This document shows, in pieces, positions 51,770 to 60,409 of a stretch of 64,000 nucleotides of DNA. A program made the position numbers and the translations under genes. The number at the start of each line of letters is the position of its first letter. The first letter of the stretch is position 1. The DNA lies in assembly GCF_002868845.1 (NCBI RefSeq), contig NZ_PKUB01000009.1:1-64000 (forward strand). Direction: 5' to 3'. Source of the stretch: Desulfuromonas sp. (GTDB lineage Bacteria > Desulfobacterota > Desulfuromonadia > Desulfuromonadales > BM501). The notes beneath the pieces were generated by a model. That model worked only from the letters and a program-made list of their open reading frames with translations. It had not been told where the DNA came from and did not search any database.

Positions 51770-52744
51770 TTAGGCAAAGGTGCGCTTCAGTTCCGGCGGG
51801 GAGAGAACTTCGACGTGGGGGATGTAGGAATAGAGCCAGGAGAGGATTTCCTTTTCGCCGCCGGCATCGAAGGAAAGGACGACGGAGCACCCCTTCTCAA
51901 CGGCGAGGAGCTGGTCGGGGTGCCAGGTCCGTTCACGGATGAGGTGGGCCACCTCGGGGGCGAAGCGGACCCGAACCGCCATCGGCGCGTCGTCGATGAG
52001 CCCGAAGGCGCTGCCGGTCAGGTCTTCGACCCGGAAATCTTCGGGAACCTCGAAGCGCTCGGCGCCGGGCTCGACGCGCTGAAGACGATCGACGAGAAAA
52101 AGGCGCAGTGCGCCGCGGTTGTGGGCGAATCCCCCGAGGTAGAGGGAGTCCTTGAAAAACAGGAGTGTGTAGGGATCGAAAAGGTACTCCTCGGCCTCCC
52201 GCCGCGGCGGGGCGTAAAGGATCTTGCAACGGTACTGCCGAAGCAGGGCATCTCGAAGCGATTCAAGGATCTCCCGCTTGCCGCTGTAGTCGCGCAGTCC
52301 CTGGAAGCGCGGCACGGCCGCCTCGGCGAGGCGCTCGAGGTGGGCCACGCTGCGGGCCGGCAGGGCCGAGCGGATGCGAGCGAAGATGGCGTCGAGGTCG
52401 TCCTGAAAGGGGGTTCCGCGGAGAAAAGCGAGCTGGCCCCGGCAGAAGTAGAGGGTCATCAGCTCCTGCAGGGAGAAGGTGATGGGAAGAGTGTCCTTGA
52501 ACTCGGAGATAAAGCCGTGCAGCACGGTCCCGTCGGGCTGCTCCTCGCGGGTCAGGGGGTAGCCGGCCTCCTCCAGGGCCTGCAGGTCGCGGTAGACCGT
52601 ACGGCGGGTCACCCCGCACTCCTCGGCCAGCTCCGCAACCGTCGCGCCGTAGCGGGCCTTGAGGATGCGGATCACATCGTGCAGCCGCGCCGCCTGGCTG
52701 TATTTCTTGGCCGGCTTGCCCGGCTTGCGGACCGGGCCGCTCAT
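51770..52744 (-). CDS. HTH-WYL transcriptional regulator
   Basis: A 324-residue DNA-binding protein. The N-terminal winged helix (residues ~15-75, ILKARYGATVAELAEECGVTRRTVYRDLQALEEAGYP) is the HTH_11 type. Residues ~140-225 form a WYL ligand-sensing domain (IAY-like segment YLFDPYTLLFFKDSLYLGGFAHNRGALRLFLVDRLQRVEP), and a WCX-like C-terminal extension follows (VRVRFAPEVAHLIRERTWHPDQLLAVEKGCSVVLSFDAGGEKEILSWLYSY). Many WYL regulators control defence or DNA-damage genes; no such target is adjacent. ATG at 52744 overlaps the stop of the pyrophosphohydrolase (ATGA). Confidence 0.9.
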   Translation of the reverse strand: MSGPVRKPGKPAKKYSQAARLHDVIRILKARYGATVAELAEECGVTRRTVYRDLQALEEAGYPLTREEQPDGTVLHGFISEFKDTLPITFSLQELMTLYFCRGQLAFLRGTPFQDDLDAIFARIRSALPARSVAHLERLAEAAVPRFQGLRDYSGKREILESLRDALLRQYRCKILYAPPRREAEEYLFDPYTLLFFKDSLYLGGFAHNRGALRLFLVDRLQRVEPGAERFEVPEDFRVEDLTGSAFGLIDDAPMAVRVRFAPEVAHLIRERTWHPDQLLAVEKGCSVVLSFDAGGEKEILSWLYSYIPHVEVLSPPELKRTFA

Positions 52745-53112
52745 TCCCCGTCCCGATAGTAGGTGTACTTGTGGGATTTGCCCCGCACCTTCTCTTTCGG
52801 GTATTTGCGGATATTCTTCGCCATCTTGGCCAGCACCGTCTCGGAGAGGTCGAGTCCGAGGGTGTTGGCCATGGAGAGAGCGTAGATGACGATGTCGGCC
52901 AGCTCCTCGCCGATCTCCTCAAGGGCCTCGGCGTCAAGGGCCTTCGACTGTTCCACAGTCAGCCACTGGAAGTGCTCCATCAGCTCGGCCGCCTCGATGG
53001 CGATGGACATGGAGAGGTTCTTGGGGGCGTGGTACTGCTCCCAGTCCCGCTCCCGCACGAAGGCGGCCATCCTCTCCTTCAGCTCCTGCAGCGTCGTCTG
53101 CTGATCGCTCAC
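52741..53112 (-). CDS. MazG-like nucleotide pyrophosphohydrolase
   Basis: A 123-residue all-alpha NTP pyrophosphohydrolase (RS21-C6/dCTPase-like). Metal-binding acidic motif EAAELMEHFQW followed by EEIGEELADIVIYALSMAN is typical, and the C-terminal KYPKEKVRGKSHKYTYY is common in this group. Probably hydrolyses dCTP or modified dNTPs. The start is GTG at 53112 with GGAGGGC upstream. The stop overlaps the WYL regulator start, so the two are coupled. Confidence 0.9.
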   Translation of the reverse strand: MSDQQTTLQELKERMAAFVRERDWEQYHAPKNLSMSIAIEAAELMEHFQWLTVEQSKALDAEALEEIGEELADIVIYALSMANTLGLDLSETVLAKMAKNIRKYPKEKVRGKSHKYTYYRDGE

Positions 53113-53371: not shown

Positions 53372-53857
53372 CTAGGCTTGAGTCGCCTTGGCGTCCTCGG
53401 ACGATTGGGGATCGCTCGACAGGAGCAGTTCGCCCAATTGTCGGTGGGCTGCGATGATCCAGAGCAGTATCGGCAACACCCAGTGGCCGGCAAGCTCCCA
53501 GAAAAGGCTGTAGAGGTAATGGGCCTTTGAGGCCCCGTCACCGAGGCCCCTGGAAGGCGGCGCCCCCCAGACCATGAAGCTGAGCAGGTCGATGGCCCAG
53601 AAGGCTGACAAGCCGCCGAGGAGTGACAGAAGACGCCGCCTCGGCGACAGTCCCGGAGTGGCAAGGACCAGGGCGAGGAAAGGGATTATCCGGTAGGCGC
53701 TGTCGTAGTAGGCGGGAAAAGGGCCGGAACCTTTGGACAGCAGGAACATGGCCAGGAGCAGGATCAGCTCGTACCCCATCATCACCCACTTCTGGCAAGC
53801 GAAGAGCAGCAAGGAGAAACCGAGCAGTTTAGCCAGGAACAACACATTTATCTTCAC
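53372..53857 (-). CDS. Exosortase-associated membrane protein
   Basis: A 161-residue membrane protein with about four helices (residues 5-24, 28-44, 53-66, 75-97, then 118-139). It resembles the membrane protein reported beside exosortase H in several genomes. Its start, GTG at 53857, lies 29 bases inside the 3' end of the exosortase gene, so the two are tightly coupled. It probably forms part of the sorting machinery or helps the enzyme recognise its substrate; role not proven. Confidence 0.7.
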   Translation of the reverse strand: MKINVLFLAKLLGFSLLLFACQKWVMMGYELILLLAMFLLSKGSGPFPAYYDSAYRIIPFLALVLATPGLSPRRRLLSLLGGLSAFWAIDLLSFMVWGAPPSRGLGDGASKAHYLYSLFWELAGHWVLPILLWIIAAHRQLGELLLSSDPQSSEDAKATQA

Positions 53858-54389
53858 GCTTCACCACCATCTCGATCCAGGCCAGCCACATCAGGATCAA
53901 CAGAAAAAGAAACGCCACCTGCCACACGTAGTCGTGCACCAGAGCCTCGTGGCGAGGGATCAGCCGCACCACCCAAGCCAATCCGACCAGGCGGACGATA
54001 TTGGCGGCAAACAGAAAGGGTATCCCGACGGCCATCCCGATGGCCTTGGACCTCACCTTGGCCGGATAGGCGAAGACGAAGGAGAGGTATACGAAAGCCG
54101 CCGAGTATGCGGTGCACTCCGCGACGATTTTCCAGTGCGCCTCCGGCATGATGATTTCGATCCCCGTCAGGGTCAGGGGAATGCCCGAGGCAGAGACCAG
54201 TGCCGCCGTGATACGGGCCGTCGCCTCCTGCAGGGGCAGGAGGTAGCCCGGCGTCATGAGTTGCCAATGGGCCAGGTTGAGCCCGAACACGAGCAGCGCA
54301 AAGACCGTGCAGACCCGGCCGACAGGAAACCGGGGGCGGCTGCTTGCCGCCCCCGGATGTTGTACGGGTATTTTTTGTTTCTTTGTCAT
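53829..54389 (-). CDS. xrtH: Exosortase, XrtH-like
   Basis: A 186-residue inner-membrane transpeptidase-like enzyme that cuts C-terminal sorting tails. About six helices are predicted. The catalytic triad of the exosortase family is visible as C92 (VAECTAYSAAFVYL), R133 (NIVRLVGLAW) and H152 (VHDYVWQ). Placement as XrtH rather than another class is based on the partner gene, the adjacent substrate with a VPVMDGWW/RRRK tail (an IPTL-CTERM-like variant) and the lack of other exosortase genes in the window. It follows the 2002-residue protein gene by 12 bases. Confidence 0.82.
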   Translation of the reverse strand: MTKKQKIPVQHPGAASSRPRFPVGRVCTVFALLVFGLNLAHWQLMTPGYLLPLQEATARITAALVSASGIPLTLTGIEIIMPEAHWKIVAECTAYSAAFVYLSFVFAYPAKVRSKAIGMAVGIPFLFAANIVRLVGLAWVVRLIPRHEALVHDYVWQVAFLFLLILMWLAWIEMVVKREDKCVVPG

Positions 54390-54400
54390 CCGATGACCGA

Positions 54401-57400
54401 TCAGTTAGAGGTTTTCCTGCGGCGCCCGATCACGCCCATGCCGCCGAGGGCCCCGAGCAGAAGCCACCAGCCGTCCATGACCGGAACGCGGTTGGCCGTG
54501 GCAGTGGACGCGCCGGATATGCCCGCCGTCGGGTCCCTGTCCGACAGGAACTCCTGCAGGTTGGACAATCCGTCGCCGTCGGCATCCGCCGATGCGTCGT
54601 CAGCGTTCGGGTCGAGACCGTAGAGGTTTTCCCAGCCATCGAGCATGCCGTCGCCGTCGGTGTCGGGATCGTTGGGATCGGTGAACGTCGTCGTCAGTTC
54701 ATCTCCGTCGAGGATGCCGTCGCCGTCGGTGTCGTCGGGAGTCGGGGTGGCGACGGTGAAGGGCGAGAAGGAATCGGTCTTGCCGCAGACGATGTTCCTG
54801 TCGATGTCCGGGTTGGGGTCGGCTGAGCTCAGCTCGGTAATGTTGACCCAGCGGCCGCCGACGAAGTGCAGCAGTGAAAGGGCGAGCTCGTCCTGCTCGC
54901 TCATGCCGGTGTCGTCGTAGGGCAGACAGATCTCGACGCTGCCCGAGTAAGCTGCGGTGGTCGAAATATCGAAGATGGTGCCGTTGAAATGGTAGCTGGT
55001 CGGCTCCGGTGTGCCGGGATCGACCAGGACTTTCACCGATCCGGCCTGGCTGATCTCCTCGAAGAGGATCTCGACCGGTTCGCTCAAAACCTCGGTATCG
55101 TCCGGGTGAACGGCGATCGCCACATCGTTCTGCGGTTCGACGAAGTTGTAGTGCATCACGACCTCGCCCCGGGAAATGAAGCGGGTTCCCTGCGCGCAGG
55201 AGGTCGGCAGCGGGCCGAAGCCGACGCCGGTATAGGGCCCCGAATACACGATGCTGGCCCCGTTGGCGCCGTGCATGTAGACGAAGCTATCGCCCCTGTC
55301 GGCCAGCGAGGCGGCGCCGAGCCGGTAAGTGCCCTTGACGAAGCCCGGATCTTCCGGCGCCAGGGCCGGGATGTATACCGCCTCTTCGATGTTGTTCCAG
55401 AAGGGCCCGCTGTATGGCCCCGAGGCGGCGCCGGAGGCCTCCCAGCCGCCAGAGATTTCAAGCGGGGTGTTCTCGAGCAGTTCGGTCTCGGCGAAGGTGA
55501 TGGGAGCGGGCCGGGGCGAGACCATTTCGCCGCTCGCCTTCTCCCCGCGAATGCTGCTGACGTAGAGGCGGGTATCCGGCCCGTCGTTGCGGAAGGTGCC
55601 GCTGATGTCTCCGACCAGTGCGCCGTAATGCTTGTTGGCGGTGATGTCGACCACCCCGTAGCCCTTGGAGTGGTAGATCTCCCCCGAATCGGACGTCACG
55701 GTCCAGCTGGTGCGGAAGTAGCCCCAGCCGGCCTTCGCGCCGGTCAGGATCGTGATGCGCCGATCGACGGTGCCCTCAATGGTTCCGTTGATCAGGCCGG
55801 TGACCGGAACCGTCCCCGATTGCGAGTCCCTCTCGACGAGGACGTCGGCGTGGTCGCTGTAGAGCGACTCCGAACACCGGTCGATGGTCAGGTCGTTGGT
55901 CCAGATGTGGCTATTTTCCGTACCGGGCGATGCGCCCGCTACCGGTCCGTCGATCCGGATCACCCGCAGGCCTTCGTTGTCGCCGAGAAAAACCTTTTTC
56001 TCATCGATTCGCAGGCTCCAGGCGGGGGCTGGCAGATCGGTGAAATTGCCGCCGTGCAACCGGGTCGGGTCGGTGACATCGGCCGCCCACAGACGCTGAT
56101 CGCTGCCGATCCAGTAAAGCATGTTCTCCTGGGCCGCCATGTCCCGGATCAACATTCCCGGCTCATAAAAGAATCTGACCTCGATGGGGGCGGAGGGGGT
56201 GGAGATGTCGAGAACCCTGATCCCGTTGTCCGTGCCGGGCTCCCTGCCGAACTCGCCGACAAAGACGTAGTCGCCGGAAACGGCAACCTGAGTCGGCATG
56301 CCTGGGGTTTCGAAAGAACCGACCTCCAGGGGCGAAGTCGGATCGCTCAGGTCAATGATGCGGACGACACCCGGGGCCTCCGGGATGCCGGAGCCTGTCG
56401 CCAGAAGAGCCAGGCGACCGTCGATCACCAGATCGTTGACCGTGCCGGAGACGGGGATCGAGGCGACCTGCACTGGGCGGGCCGGGTCGATAAGATCGAA
56501 CACCCGGAATCCCCCATGGTAATCGGCGGCGTAGTAGTAATCGAGATCGGTACCCATGCCCCAGAGCCAGCCCTCGGTGGGGAAATGGGCGATCTCCCGC
56601 GGTGCGGCCGGGTCGGTGGCGTCGATGACCCGCATGTCGGAATCGCCGACATAGGCGTAGCCGGCTGCGCAGGCCACCTCCCAGGCCTCGGTCGCCATCT
56701 CGTAGGCGCCAATCTCGGTGGGCATTTCGGGCGTACCGACATCGATGATCCGGACTCCCGCGTCCATGGCGGCGGCATAGACGGTCATTAAATCGAGATC
56801 GATGTCGTTGACCTGCATCCCCGGGAGGTCGATAAAGCCGATTTCGGTAAAGAGGGTGACAGGGTCCCCGCCGACCCTGGGATTGGTGCCGTTGAGATAT
56901 TCGGTCAGGTTCTTGCGCCCGTCGCCGTCGAGGTCGCCCGAGGCGTCGGCCGGGTCGGCGGGATCGAGGCCGTTGGCCAGTTCGTAGGCGTTCGGCATCC
57001 GGTCCTGGTCCATGTCATCGCTGCAGGCGTCGCCGTAACTGTTGCCGCCCGAGGCGAGCTGGTCCGGGTTGCGAACCAGCGGGCAGTTGTCGGCGTTGTC
57101 GCCGATGCCGTCGCCGTCGCCGTCCTGCCACTCGCTGGCGTCATAGCGGAAGGGAAGTTCGTAGAAATCGGGGAACCCGTCGTTGTCGCCGTCCTCGTCG
57201 CAGGAGTCGCCGAGGCCGTCTTCGTCGAAATCGCCCTGGTCGGGGTTCTCCCTCTGCGGGCAGTTGTCCAGGTTGTCGCTGACGCCGTCGCCGTCGGCGT
57301 CGCCGCCGTCATCTTCCTGGTCCACGCCGGTGTAAAGGGTCGTCACCTCGGCGCCCGAAAGAGCCCGGTTGAGGATAGTCAACTCGTCGATGTCGCCGGG

Positions 57401-60400
57401 GAAGTTGTAGGTCGCATGGGTGTAGGCGCCGCCGATGGTCTGGTCGACATGCGTTTCGTAGGTCGGTACGCCGAGCGTACCGGAGGTGTGCGACACGCCG
57501 TCGATGTAGATCGTCCCGGTCGTCCCCGAGAGGGTCGCGACGACATGCTTCCAGGTGCCGTCGTCGATGCGCACCGTGGAGAAAATGCTCCTGTCGCCCG
57601 CCATGAAGTGCAGAGTCCCGTCCACGGTGCTCATCATGTAACCGGAGTGGGGCGAGACCTCGAGCATGTTGCTGAAGATGTGTTTGGAATCGGTCAGGTT
57701 CTCGGCGCGGACCCAGGCGGCGATGGTCAGGTCCCCGGCGATGTTGAAATCGACATGGTCGGGGATGCTCGCGTAGTCGCTCCCGTCGAAACGGAGAGCG
57801 GCGCCCGCGCCGCCGAGACGGTCGGCAACGGGGACTGCGCCGTGGACCGCGGCGTCGAGGCCGTTGCCTCCCGCGTCGAGGCCGTTGCCGTCGAGAGGAT
57901 AGTACGCCACGACGCCGTTGTCGACCGGATCCGAACCGGGCAGCACCATCTCGGCGGTGAGAACATGCTGGTTCCCGGGACTGCAAGGGCCCGGAACGGG
58001 GCTCGCGGCCATGACTCGATGCGGCCCGTGGGTGCCGAAGAGGATGCCCGTTCCGCCATCGATATAGATCATCCCTCGCGACTCGTTCTCCTCGACGGGC
58101 TCTCCGACCCAGTAGGTGGTCATGATCAAGCCCGAGTCTCCCGGGGCCAGCGCGGGAACCTGTATTTCTTCATCAACGATCTGCAGGAAGGGCCCGCTGG
58201 CGGCGCCGCTGGCGGCGCCGGAGGTCTGCCAGCCGGAAATGTAATGGACCGGGGTGGCAAGCAGGGTGCTGCTCTGGGCAAAAGTGGTCGGGACCGAGAC
58301 GGGAAGGACCAGTTCCCCGCCTGCCTGTTCGCCTTCGACGCTGGTGATCAAGAGCCGGACCGAGCCGCCTTCGACTTCGAAGGTGCCGTTGATGTCCCCG
58401 ACCGATCCGCCGAACTGCAGGCCGATGGGCGCCAAGCCGACCCCGTAGAGAGTGGAGCGGTAGACCTTGCCCGTGCCCGCCTCGGTCAGGGTCCAGTCGC
58501 TGCGGGAATACCCCCTCCCTTCCGATCTGCCCGTCAGGAACGAAACCTGCCTGGCGACGGTGACCTCCGATGTCCCGGTGATGGCCCCCGTAGTGGGCAT
58601 CGACATGGGATCGGAACCTTCCTGCACGAGGAGGTCGGTGTTTTCAGTCAGGGTGATATCGCTGCACTGGTCGACCGTGACATCCATGGTCAGGATATGG
58701 GTTCCGGAGATGTCGGCGAAATCGAAATGGGCGACCTGGAGGGAGTCGTAGTCGGCCACATAGGCGGTGCTGGCCGCGGCATCAACGTCGAAAGCCGCGG
58801 AAGGGGTGTCGAGGTTGGCGATGATTTCGGGCAGGGCCGGGTCGCTGATGTCGACCGCCCAGAGGCCGTAGCGGTCCCCGGCGACAAGAGCAATGTCGCC
58901 CGAGAGGCTCAGACCCGAAACGTATCCCGGAATCGAAAGAGTGCTGACCCGGACAGGGTTCGCGGGATCGCTGAGGTCGTAGATCCAGAGACCGGCAGAC
59001 GCGTTGGCGAAATATAGATAGTCGCCGCGCGCCTCGATGGCCAGGGAGGTGGCTGCGCTCCTGCCGCCCCCCAGGGATTGGACCTCGTAGGGATGGGCCG
59101 GGTCGGCGACGTCGATGACCGTCACACCGTACATCTCCCGGGCCAGGTAAGCGTAATCGCCGGCGACCGCCAGGTCAGACGCCTCTTCCGCGTCTACGGA
59201 ACCGATGACGGCGGGGTTTGCCGGATCGCTGACATCGACGATGTGCAGGCCCTCGTAACCGACGACATAGGCGCGAGAGCCGACCACGCGGACCGCCCGG
59301 GCCTCGGTCAGGTCGAGGAAGCCGACCGCAACCGGCTGCGTGGGGTCGCTGACGTCGACAATGCGCAAACCGTCAGAGCCGGTCGCCGCGTAGACGTAAT
59401 CGCCAGCCGCTGCGAGCCCGGCGGTCCAGCCCTCCAGGTCTATGGCGCCGATCTCCACGGGGGCGGCCGGTTCGCCGGCGTCGATGATCCGGAACCCGTT
59501 GTGGCCGTCGGCAACATAAACCCGGCTGCCGACGGCGGTGACCGCGTAGCTGTCTGTCGGCGGGGTGACCTGCCCCAGGGATCCGATACTGCCCGCCATG
59601 GTCGAGGGGGAGGCGGCCAAGACGTGCTCGAGTCTGCCCTCGCCGGCAGAGCCGAGAACGACCGGGCCGTAGACCGTCGCCTCGTGCATGCCGAACAGGG
59701 GGCCATCGCTCATGCCGATGCGGGGCATGACATCGGGGACCATGCTCTGGTCGGCGTAGAGGTAGGTCGACCCCGGGCCGCAGTCACCCGAGTAGTCGCG
59801 CAGCACGAACCCGCTCTCGAGGGATTGGATCAGGACCGCGGTGCCGTTGCTTTCGATCAGACCGTTGCAGACACCCGAGGCCATGCCGGCGATGGTGTTG
59901 GTGCTGATCCTGACCGGGACGTCGGCCAGGGCGCTGGTGGTGCCGTTAATGACGTTGTCGAGCGTCAGGGCGACCGTGCCGGATGCCTTGACCCCGCCGA
60001 TGCTTGTCAGGTGAAGTGTTCGCGCCGTACCGTCAAAGGCGGCCACCCCGTGGAGGTCCCCGGTAAGCGCTCCCCAGCCTTGGCTGCCGTTGCACACCTG
60101 GTAGATCTCCCCCGCGTAGCCGTCAATCTCGTAGAGCGCCTTGCGGTACGACCAGCCCTCGTAGGTGCCGCTTCCGATAAAGACCCGGCGGCCGCGATCG
60201 ATCTTCATCGGACCGCTCAGGGCCCCGGAGGCGGTCAACTCGACCGTCCAGTCGTCGTGAAGCGTCACATTGACCTGTTCGGTCTGGGGAGTTCCGACGG
60301 CGACAAAAGAAAAATCATTGCCCGTCACGAAGGCGGCCGCGGTACCGATGTCGAAGACGAGCAGCAAAAAGGTGACCAGCAAAGCAAAACGCATTTTCTC

Positions 60401-60409
60401 GGGGTTCAT
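54401..60409 (-). CDS. Giant secreted multidomain protein, predicted exosortase substrate
   Basis: A 2002-residue protein. A signal peptide is at 1-26 (MRFALLVTFLLLVFDIGTAAA within it). Domains in order: unnamed module A (~28-280), a six- to seven-blade LVIVD propeller (~284-573, blades like LRIVDVSDPTQPVAVGFL), module B (~570-826), a LamG-like domain (~833-1030), thrombospondin type 3 calcium repeats (~1034-1170), a second LVIVD propeller (~1190-1493), module C (~1498-1753), a beta-sandwich-like segment (~1757-1890), another set of DxDGDG repeats (~1890-1960) and a sorting tail at 1975-2002 (VPVMDGWW, a hydrophobic stretch, then RRRK). AGGAGG lies 6 bases before the ATG. The exosortase follows immediately. 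Probably a surface adhesin or matrix protein; ligands are unknown. Confidence 0.9.
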   Translation of the reverse strand: MNPEKMRFALLVTFLLLVFDIGTAAAFVTGNDFSFVAVGTPQTEQVNVTLHDDWTVELTASGALSGPMKIDRGRRVFIGSGTYEGWSYRKALYEIDGYAGEIYQVCNGSQGWGALTGDLHGVAAFDGTARTLHLTSIGGVKASGTVALTLDNVINGTTSALADVPVRISTNTIAGMASGVCNGLIESNGTAVLIQSLESGFVLRDYSGDCGPGSTYLYADQSMVPDVMPRIGMSDGPLFGMHEATVYGPVVLGSAGEGRLEHVLAASPSTMAGSIGSLGQVTPPTDSYAVTAVGSRVYVADGHNGFRIIDAGEPAAPVEIGAIDLEGWTAGLAAAGDYVYAATGSDGLRIVDVSDPTQPVAVGFLDLTEARAVRVVGSRAYVVGYEGLHIVDVSDPANPAVIGSVDAEEASDLAVAGDYAYLAREMYGVTVIDVADPAHPYEVQSLGGGRSAATSLAIEARGDYLYFANASAGLWIYDLSDPANPVRVSTLSIPGYVSGLSLSGDIALVAGDRYGLWAVDISDPALPEIIANLDTPSAAFDVDAAASTAYVADYDSLQVAHFDFADISGTHILTMDVTVDQCSDITLTENTDLLVQEGSDPMSMPTTGAITGTSEVTVARQVSFLTGRSEGRGYSRSDWTLTEAGTGKVYRSTLYGVGLAPIGLQFGGSVGDINGTFEVEGGSVRLLITSVEGEQAGGELVLPVSVPTTFAQSSTLLATPVHYISGWQTSGAASGAASGPFLQIVDEEIQVPALAPGDSGLIMTTYWVGEPVEENESRGMIYIDGGTGILFGTHGPHRVMAASPVPGPCSPGNQHVLTAEMVLPGSDPVDNGVVAYYPLDGNGLDAGGNGLDAAVHGAVPVADRLGGAGAALRFDGSDYASIPDHVDFNIAGDLTIAAWVRAENLTDSKHIFSNMLEVSPHSGYMMSTVDGTLHFMAGDRSIFSTVRIDDGTWKHVVATLSGTTGTIYIDGVSHTSGTLGVPTYETHVDQTIGGAYTHATYNFPGDIDELTILNRALSGAEVTTLYTGVDQEDDGGDADGDGVSDNLDNCPQRENPDQGDFDEDGLGDSCDEDGDNDGFPDFYELPFRYDASEWQDGDGDGIGDNADNCPLVRNPDQLASGGNSYGDACSDDMDQDRMPNAYELANGLDPADPADASGDLDGDGRKNLTEYLNGTNPRVGGDPVTLFTEIGFIDLPGMQVNDIDLDLMTVYAAAMDAGVRIIDVGTPEMPTEIGAYEMATEAWEVACAAGYAYVGDSDMRVIDATDPAAPREIAHFPTEGWLWGMGTDLDYYYAADYHGGFRVFDLIDPARPVQVASIPVSGTVNDLVIDGRLALLATGSGIPEAPGVVRIIDLSDPTSPLEVGSFETPGMPTQVAVSGDYVFVGEFGREPGTDNGIRVLDISTPSAPIEVRFFYEPGMLIRDMAAQENMLYWIGSDQRLWAADVTDPTRLHGGNFTDLPAPAWSLRIDEKKVFLGDNEGLRVIRIDGPVAGASPGTENSHIWTNDLTIDRCSESLYSDHADVLVERDSQSGTVPVTGLINGTIEGTVDRRITILTGAKAGWGYFRTSWTVTSDSGEIYHSKGYGVVDITANKHYGALVGDISGTFRNDGPDTRLYVSSIRGEKASGEMVSPRPAPITFAETELLENTPLEISGGWEASGAASGPYSGPFWNNIEEAVYIPALAPEDPGFVKGTYRLGAASLADRGDSFVYMHGANGASIVYSGPYTGVGFGPLPTSCAQGTRFISRGEVVMHYNFVEPQNDVAIAVHPDDTEVLSEPVEILFEEISQAGSVKVLVDPGTPEPTSYHFNGTIFDISTTAAYSGSVEICLPYDDTGMSEQDELALSLLHFVGGRWVNITELSSADPNPDIDRNIVCGKTDSFSPFTVATPTPDDTDGDGILDGDELTTTFTDPNDPDTDGDGMLDGWENLYGLDPNADDASADADGDGLSNLQEFLSDRDPTAGISGASTATANRVPVMDGWWLLLGALGGMGVIGRRRKTSN

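Follow-up and report, generated by a model that had tools for sequence, protein, structure and literature searches.

The window described here, a stretch of 64,000 nucleotides from Desulfuromonas sp., contains a small exosortase gene next to the gene of a very large secreted protein. This raises the question whether the enzyme and its neighbor form a private pair of a known exosortase class, as proposed in an earlier note on this DNA, or whether they belong to a larger system of a different kind. To our knowledge, the substrate recognition of exosortases is largely undefined.

The locus consists of three genes, all encoded on the minus strand (Table 1). Here, the substrate gene is followed after a gap of 11 nt by the exosortase gene, which overlaps the gene of a membrane partner by 29 nt. 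The co-directional unit with a 2002-residue secreted protein, the overlapping partner and the C/R/H triad, all described in the earlier note, are present as stated. The exosortase exceeds the cut-offs of both superfamily models (TIGR04178, 53.4 vs. 23 bits; PF09721, 52.2 vs. 25.7 bits), matches Exosortase_EpsH of Pfam (7e-14), and its triad is invariant in 14 family members. Searched against the PDB, the exosortase sequence retrieved only spurious matches (designed TIM barrels, PEN-2) and the partner sequence none. The AlphaFold models of both proteins are fair (pLDDT 86 and 83), and a fold search with these models against the PDB returned nothing better than E 1. Downstream of the module, at 51770–53112, lie genes for a WYL-domain regulator and a MazG-like protein, which overlap each other by 4 nt.

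Table 1. Features of the exosortase module within the window.
Feature	Position	Strand	Evidence
Substrate gene, 2002 aa: predicted Sec-type signal peptide, LVIVD propellers, LamG, TSP3 calcium repeats, juxta-tail domain, putative sorting tail	54401..60409	-	
N-terminal signal peptide (predicted), residues 1-27, MNPEKMRFALLVTFLLLVFDIGTAAAF	60329..60409	-	hydropathy peak residues 10-28
LamG (Laminin_G_3), residues 875-1022	57344..57787	-	Pfam E=7e-25
Juxta-tail domain, ~110 aa	54743..55078	-	E=3e-41
C-terminal sorting tail (putative), RVPVMDGWW-helix-RRRK	54413..54496	-	tail profile E=1.2e-14
Exosortase, 186 aa, unclassified XrtH-like subfamily, catalytic C92/R133/H152	53829..54389	-	
Hairpin, 11 bp, all GC, loop of 5, then TTTCC; within the 5'-terminal part of the exosortase ORF	54330..54356	-	
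Membrane partner, 161 aa, homolog of the C-terminal half found in true XrtH proteins	53372..53857	-	

The domains of the substrate were confirmed by Pfam, which besides the Laminin_G_3 domain recognizes nine stretches of LVIVD (3e-56) and TSP_3 (1e-9), corresponding to the propellers, LamG and calcium repeats read from the sequence before. The C-terminus of the protein, RVPVMDGWWLLLGALGGMGVIGRRRKTSN, agrees with the tail quoted in the earlier note, and the tail profile that detects it (Table 1) was built from 21 seeds, of which the window tail is one. Since the tail matches this profile and a related tail is found in independent genomes, its occurrence is not due to chance. The tail has the consensus VPVMxGWWLLxG..AGLGLxARRRK (in short VPVMxGWW, helix, RRRK), and in the alignment of the 21 tails V and W are invariant and P is near-invariant. 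Both this alignment and the seven tailed proteins of the window genome display the layout of CTERM signals, in which a protein that starts with a signal peptide has a motif, a helix and a basic cluster at its very C-terminus. In the window tail the hydrophobic stretch comprises ~15 residues and does not pass a 19-residue hydropathy scan. The juxta-tail domain directly precedes the tail in five of these seven proteins, is confined to tailed proteins within this genome and is also present in the substrates of two relatives (G225 and G247). Surface display of the substrate is plausible.

The earlier picture of a self-contained module with a single dedicated substrate was not upheld by targeted searches of the genome, which revealed exactly two exosortases above the cut-off and seven tailed proteins. 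The second exosortase belongs to a paralogous module on contig C25, where exosortase and partner are 54% and 52% identical to their counterparts in the window, the partner overlaps the exosortase by the same 29 nt and the substrate is again located 11 nt upstream of the exosortase. This substrate has 1450 aa, contains NHL and Ig-like repeats and carries the tail VPVGQGGW...SRRR. In the phylogenetic tree, the two exosortases are sisters (96/88). The second module (L009, G000:C25, 1-8100) lies between genes reading as flagellin and flgL, within a flagellar cluster. A third exosortase candidate on contig C2 was rejected, since it scores only 20.8 bits against PF09721, below the cut-off, and reads by eye as a CHASE2-like adenylate cyclase.

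Besides the two exosortase-adjacent substrates, five tailed proteins of 655 to 2021 aa are scattered over the contigs C16, C20, C21, C31 and C38, far from any exosortase; together, the seven tails match the profile at E-values from 4e-16 to 3e-12. All five were already found by a first profile at 9e-13 to 5e-6, whose seeds were the tails from relatives and from the two modules of the window genome, that is, without the scattered ones. The four that were scanned for domains (on C20, C21, C31 and C38) consist of Fn3, CarboxypepD_reg, propeller or LamG units, or gave a weak match to an Ig-like domain. Probably, the two exosortases serve all seven tailed proteins.

A close exosortase is present in 12 of the 277 genomes of the class, and one further member was found in a Desulfobulbaceae MAG. 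Neither the 60 genomes of the family of this relative (1/60 in total) nor a phylum-wide sample of 395 genomes contained an additional close member. The module is rare and shows a patchy distribution in Desulfuromonadales-related bacteria. Of these 277 genomes, 11 contain the tail, and each of them is among the 12 with an exosortase (Fisher p=8e-19). This test is partly circular because the profile seeds are mostly exosortase-adjacent genes; its independent part consists of the five scattered tails of the window genome, the tail of G181 and a second tail in G224 that is distant from the exosortase. In the twelfth genome (G047), which has no tail, the exosortase is cut at a contig edge and the juxta-tail domain is present elsewhere in the genome. 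Most relatives have a single tail. The gene directly upstream of the exosortase ends in the tail in 13 of the 14 complete loci, and in the remaining one, that of G224, it is reduced to a short frame. Since the sole tail of G181 lies ~0.9 Mb away from its exosortase, the link between tail and enzyme is not one of adjacency alone. Two exosortase-like proteins (L025 and L026, in G074 and G075) fall into the same clade on a long branch, and their catalytic His is replaced by Tyr (FFYDY); these two genomes yielded no VPV tail.

Each of the 14 complete loci has the partner gene after the exosortase gene, and the two overlap by 29 nt in 13 loci and by 8 nt in one. The partner matches no named family above a cut-off, and the model of the XrtF-associated protein is absent among the matches of 15 partners at E 10. 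A profile of the partner does, however, match longer, fused proteins from this class, in a stretch just past their exosortase core. Compared by hhalign with the C-terminal halves of ten fused XrtH-type proteins, the partner reached 97.3% (E=2e-11), against 51% and 73% in the controls with exosortase cores. Due to this homology, the partner looks like a detached half of an XrtH-type enzyme, which would make exosortase and partner a split XrtH-type enzyme. Partner genes without a detected adjoining exosortase are present in three further loci (L109, 4358-4855; L110, 4206-4640; L111, 3953-4270), one of which is degraded. In L027 and L031, XrtH-type proteins of ~670-700 aa possess an extra long C-terminal region past the partner-like half.

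The class of the enzyme decides whether the locus could simply be a divergent but ordinary XrtH/IPTL-CTERM system. The XrtH model (TIGR04177) is among the best models for the window exosortase with 67 bits, and to this extent the label XrtH-like holds. The pattern [VI]P-x-x-x-x-W of the tail resembles IPTL-CTERM, the partner and the C-terminal half of XrtH are homologs, and in G560 an XrtH (89.8 bits) is located directly downstream of a substrate whose VPTLSEWG tail matches IPTL-CTERM. In this adjacent pair (L107, G560:C1), the upstream protein has ~320 aa and ends with VPTLSEWG...KRR. However, the XrtH cut-off of 86 bits is missed by the window exosortase and by the other members of the family (14/14; best E-value 1.2e-20, about 74 bits), while proteins of 332 and 340 aa from the same class exceed it with 87 and 245 bits, and the tree places the family in a clade apart from the XrtH-type rows (support 98/97). 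The same holds true for the tail, since none of ten family tails matches IPTL-CTERM (TIGR04174) even at E 10, whereas the tail of G560, used as positive control, scores 32.6 bits against a cut-off of 20.5; the difference from IPTL-CTERM noticed in the earlier note is therefore real. A comparison with the named CTERM models, proposed there as a check, yielded no model above its cut-off, VPLPA-CTERM being the nearest with 22.5 vs. 25.35 bits. We consider an ordinary XrtH system unlikely. Because the XrtH of G560 adjoins its IPTL-CTERM substrate, the gene arrangement is common to both systems, while tail and enzyme have diverged. By its sequence, the enzyme is assigned to an unclassified exosortase subfamily, which is related to XrtH but distinct, has its own sorting signal and a predicted client set of one to seven proteins.

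The pairing of the enzyme with one adjacent target holds for most relatives, which together with the adjacent tail in 13 of 14 complete loci would fit a dedicated system, where the product of the neighboring gene is the sole target of each exosortase. Such pairs are a known pattern among sorting enzymes (PMC3237569). For the window genome the pairing fails, as five tailed proteins lack an adjoining exosortase and no third exosortase was found. In G181, moreover, the single tail is distant from the exosortase, so that strict dedication is improbable. It would be more surprising still if the tail served simply to anchor the protein in the membrane and the exosortase had other targets. A hydrophobic stretch followed by basic residues is common in anchors, but this would not explain the conservation of V, W and P, the sharing of only the tail or the juxta-tail domain by otherwise unrelated proteins, or the co-distribution of tail and exosortase. 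We favor, with a probability of roughly 80%, that the locus and its paralog on C25 are modules of an unclassified, XrtH-related subfamily with a tail of its own, in which exosortase and partner half-subunit would process large adhesive surface proteins. The sequences demonstrate the anatomy, the subfamily, the co-distribution of tail and enzyme, the second module, the seven tails and the homology between partner and XrtH; from these we infer cleavage, acceptor, surface display, the sharing of enzymes and the role of the partner.

Mechanistically, the substrate would be exported by the Sec system via its N-terminal signal peptide and then stay in the inner membrane, retained there by its C-terminal helix and the basic cluster. 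The exosortase, with Cys92 as nucleophile assisted by Arg133 and His152, would then cleave at or near the VPV motif, and the overlapping partner may work with it as a second half-subunit. The cleaved protein would be released or passed to an acceptor in the envelope, by which large adhesive proteins could reach the cell surface or matrix.

In comparison to known systems, the family shares with XrtH/IPTL-CTERM the core enzyme and its triad, a similar spacing of P and W in the tail and the possible position of the substrate gene directly upstream of the enzyme. In contrast, its tail reads VPVMxGWW and not IPTLxxWG, and the partner-homologous region after the core, which is fused to it in XrtH proteins from the same class, is here encoded by a separate, overlapping gene. 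A small exosortase with an adjacent partner is also known from the XrtF system of Flavobacterium johnsoniae, in which neither biofilm formation nor surface colonisation can do without XrtF and the exosortase F system-associated protein (Fjoh_1448/1449; PMC10936215). However, the window exosortase is far below the XrtF cut-off (46 vs. 90), the partners of the window family match no XrtF-associated model, and the XrtF substrates themselves are not known. VPLPA-CTERM (TIGR03370), the CTERM model closest to the window tail, matches the other tails of the family less well or not at all. Archaeosortase B (TIGR04144) is the top-scoring subfamily model for the window enzyme with 69 bits, but this is far below its cut-off of 150, and the enzyme is bacterial with a different tail. 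The rhombosortase/GlyGly-CTERM system likewise has a single enzyme-adjacent target in some genomes and many targets in others, most multi-target genomes being without adjacency (PMC3237569). In contrast to this unrelated protease family, both exosortases of the window genome keep an adjacent target.

With a sharp tail motif and one to seven known clients per genome, the family represents a compact system for probing the role of the partner and tail specificity. Here, the occurrence of the partner both as a separate gene and as the C-terminal half of fused XrtH proteins gives a handle on its role, and members with one substrate beside the enzyme add to the usefulness of the family. Furthermore, a set of predicted surface proteins is added to the Desulfuromonas group and its relatives, where attachment matters.

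A further-reaching proposal is put forward only tentatively, as we regard it as somewhat doubtful: a separate exosortase class with an enzyme split into two overlapping genes, a VPVMxGWW tail of its own, expansion of a dedicated pair in one lineage until two enzymes served seven clients, and a hairpin where the enzyme gene begins, which would result in far more substrate than enzyme. In most relatives, stems of 8–12 pairs are present at about the same place as the hairpin of the window (Table 1), and their sequences differ. The loci L041, L042, L003, L043, L044, L045, L009 and L048 have such a hairpin in the initial ~100 nt of their exosortase gene. As the stems sit in different registers among the loci, stem strength was compared with that of other segments within these loci. 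This gave a combined p-value of 1.3e-6 without the window and 9e-6 if a near-duplicate locus is left out as well, and three control sites gave no signal in the same test. A conserved peptide (GA...RP) could account for part of the stem. The hairpin may lower the level of the enzyme relative to the substrate by attenuation, or may protect the substrate mRNA.
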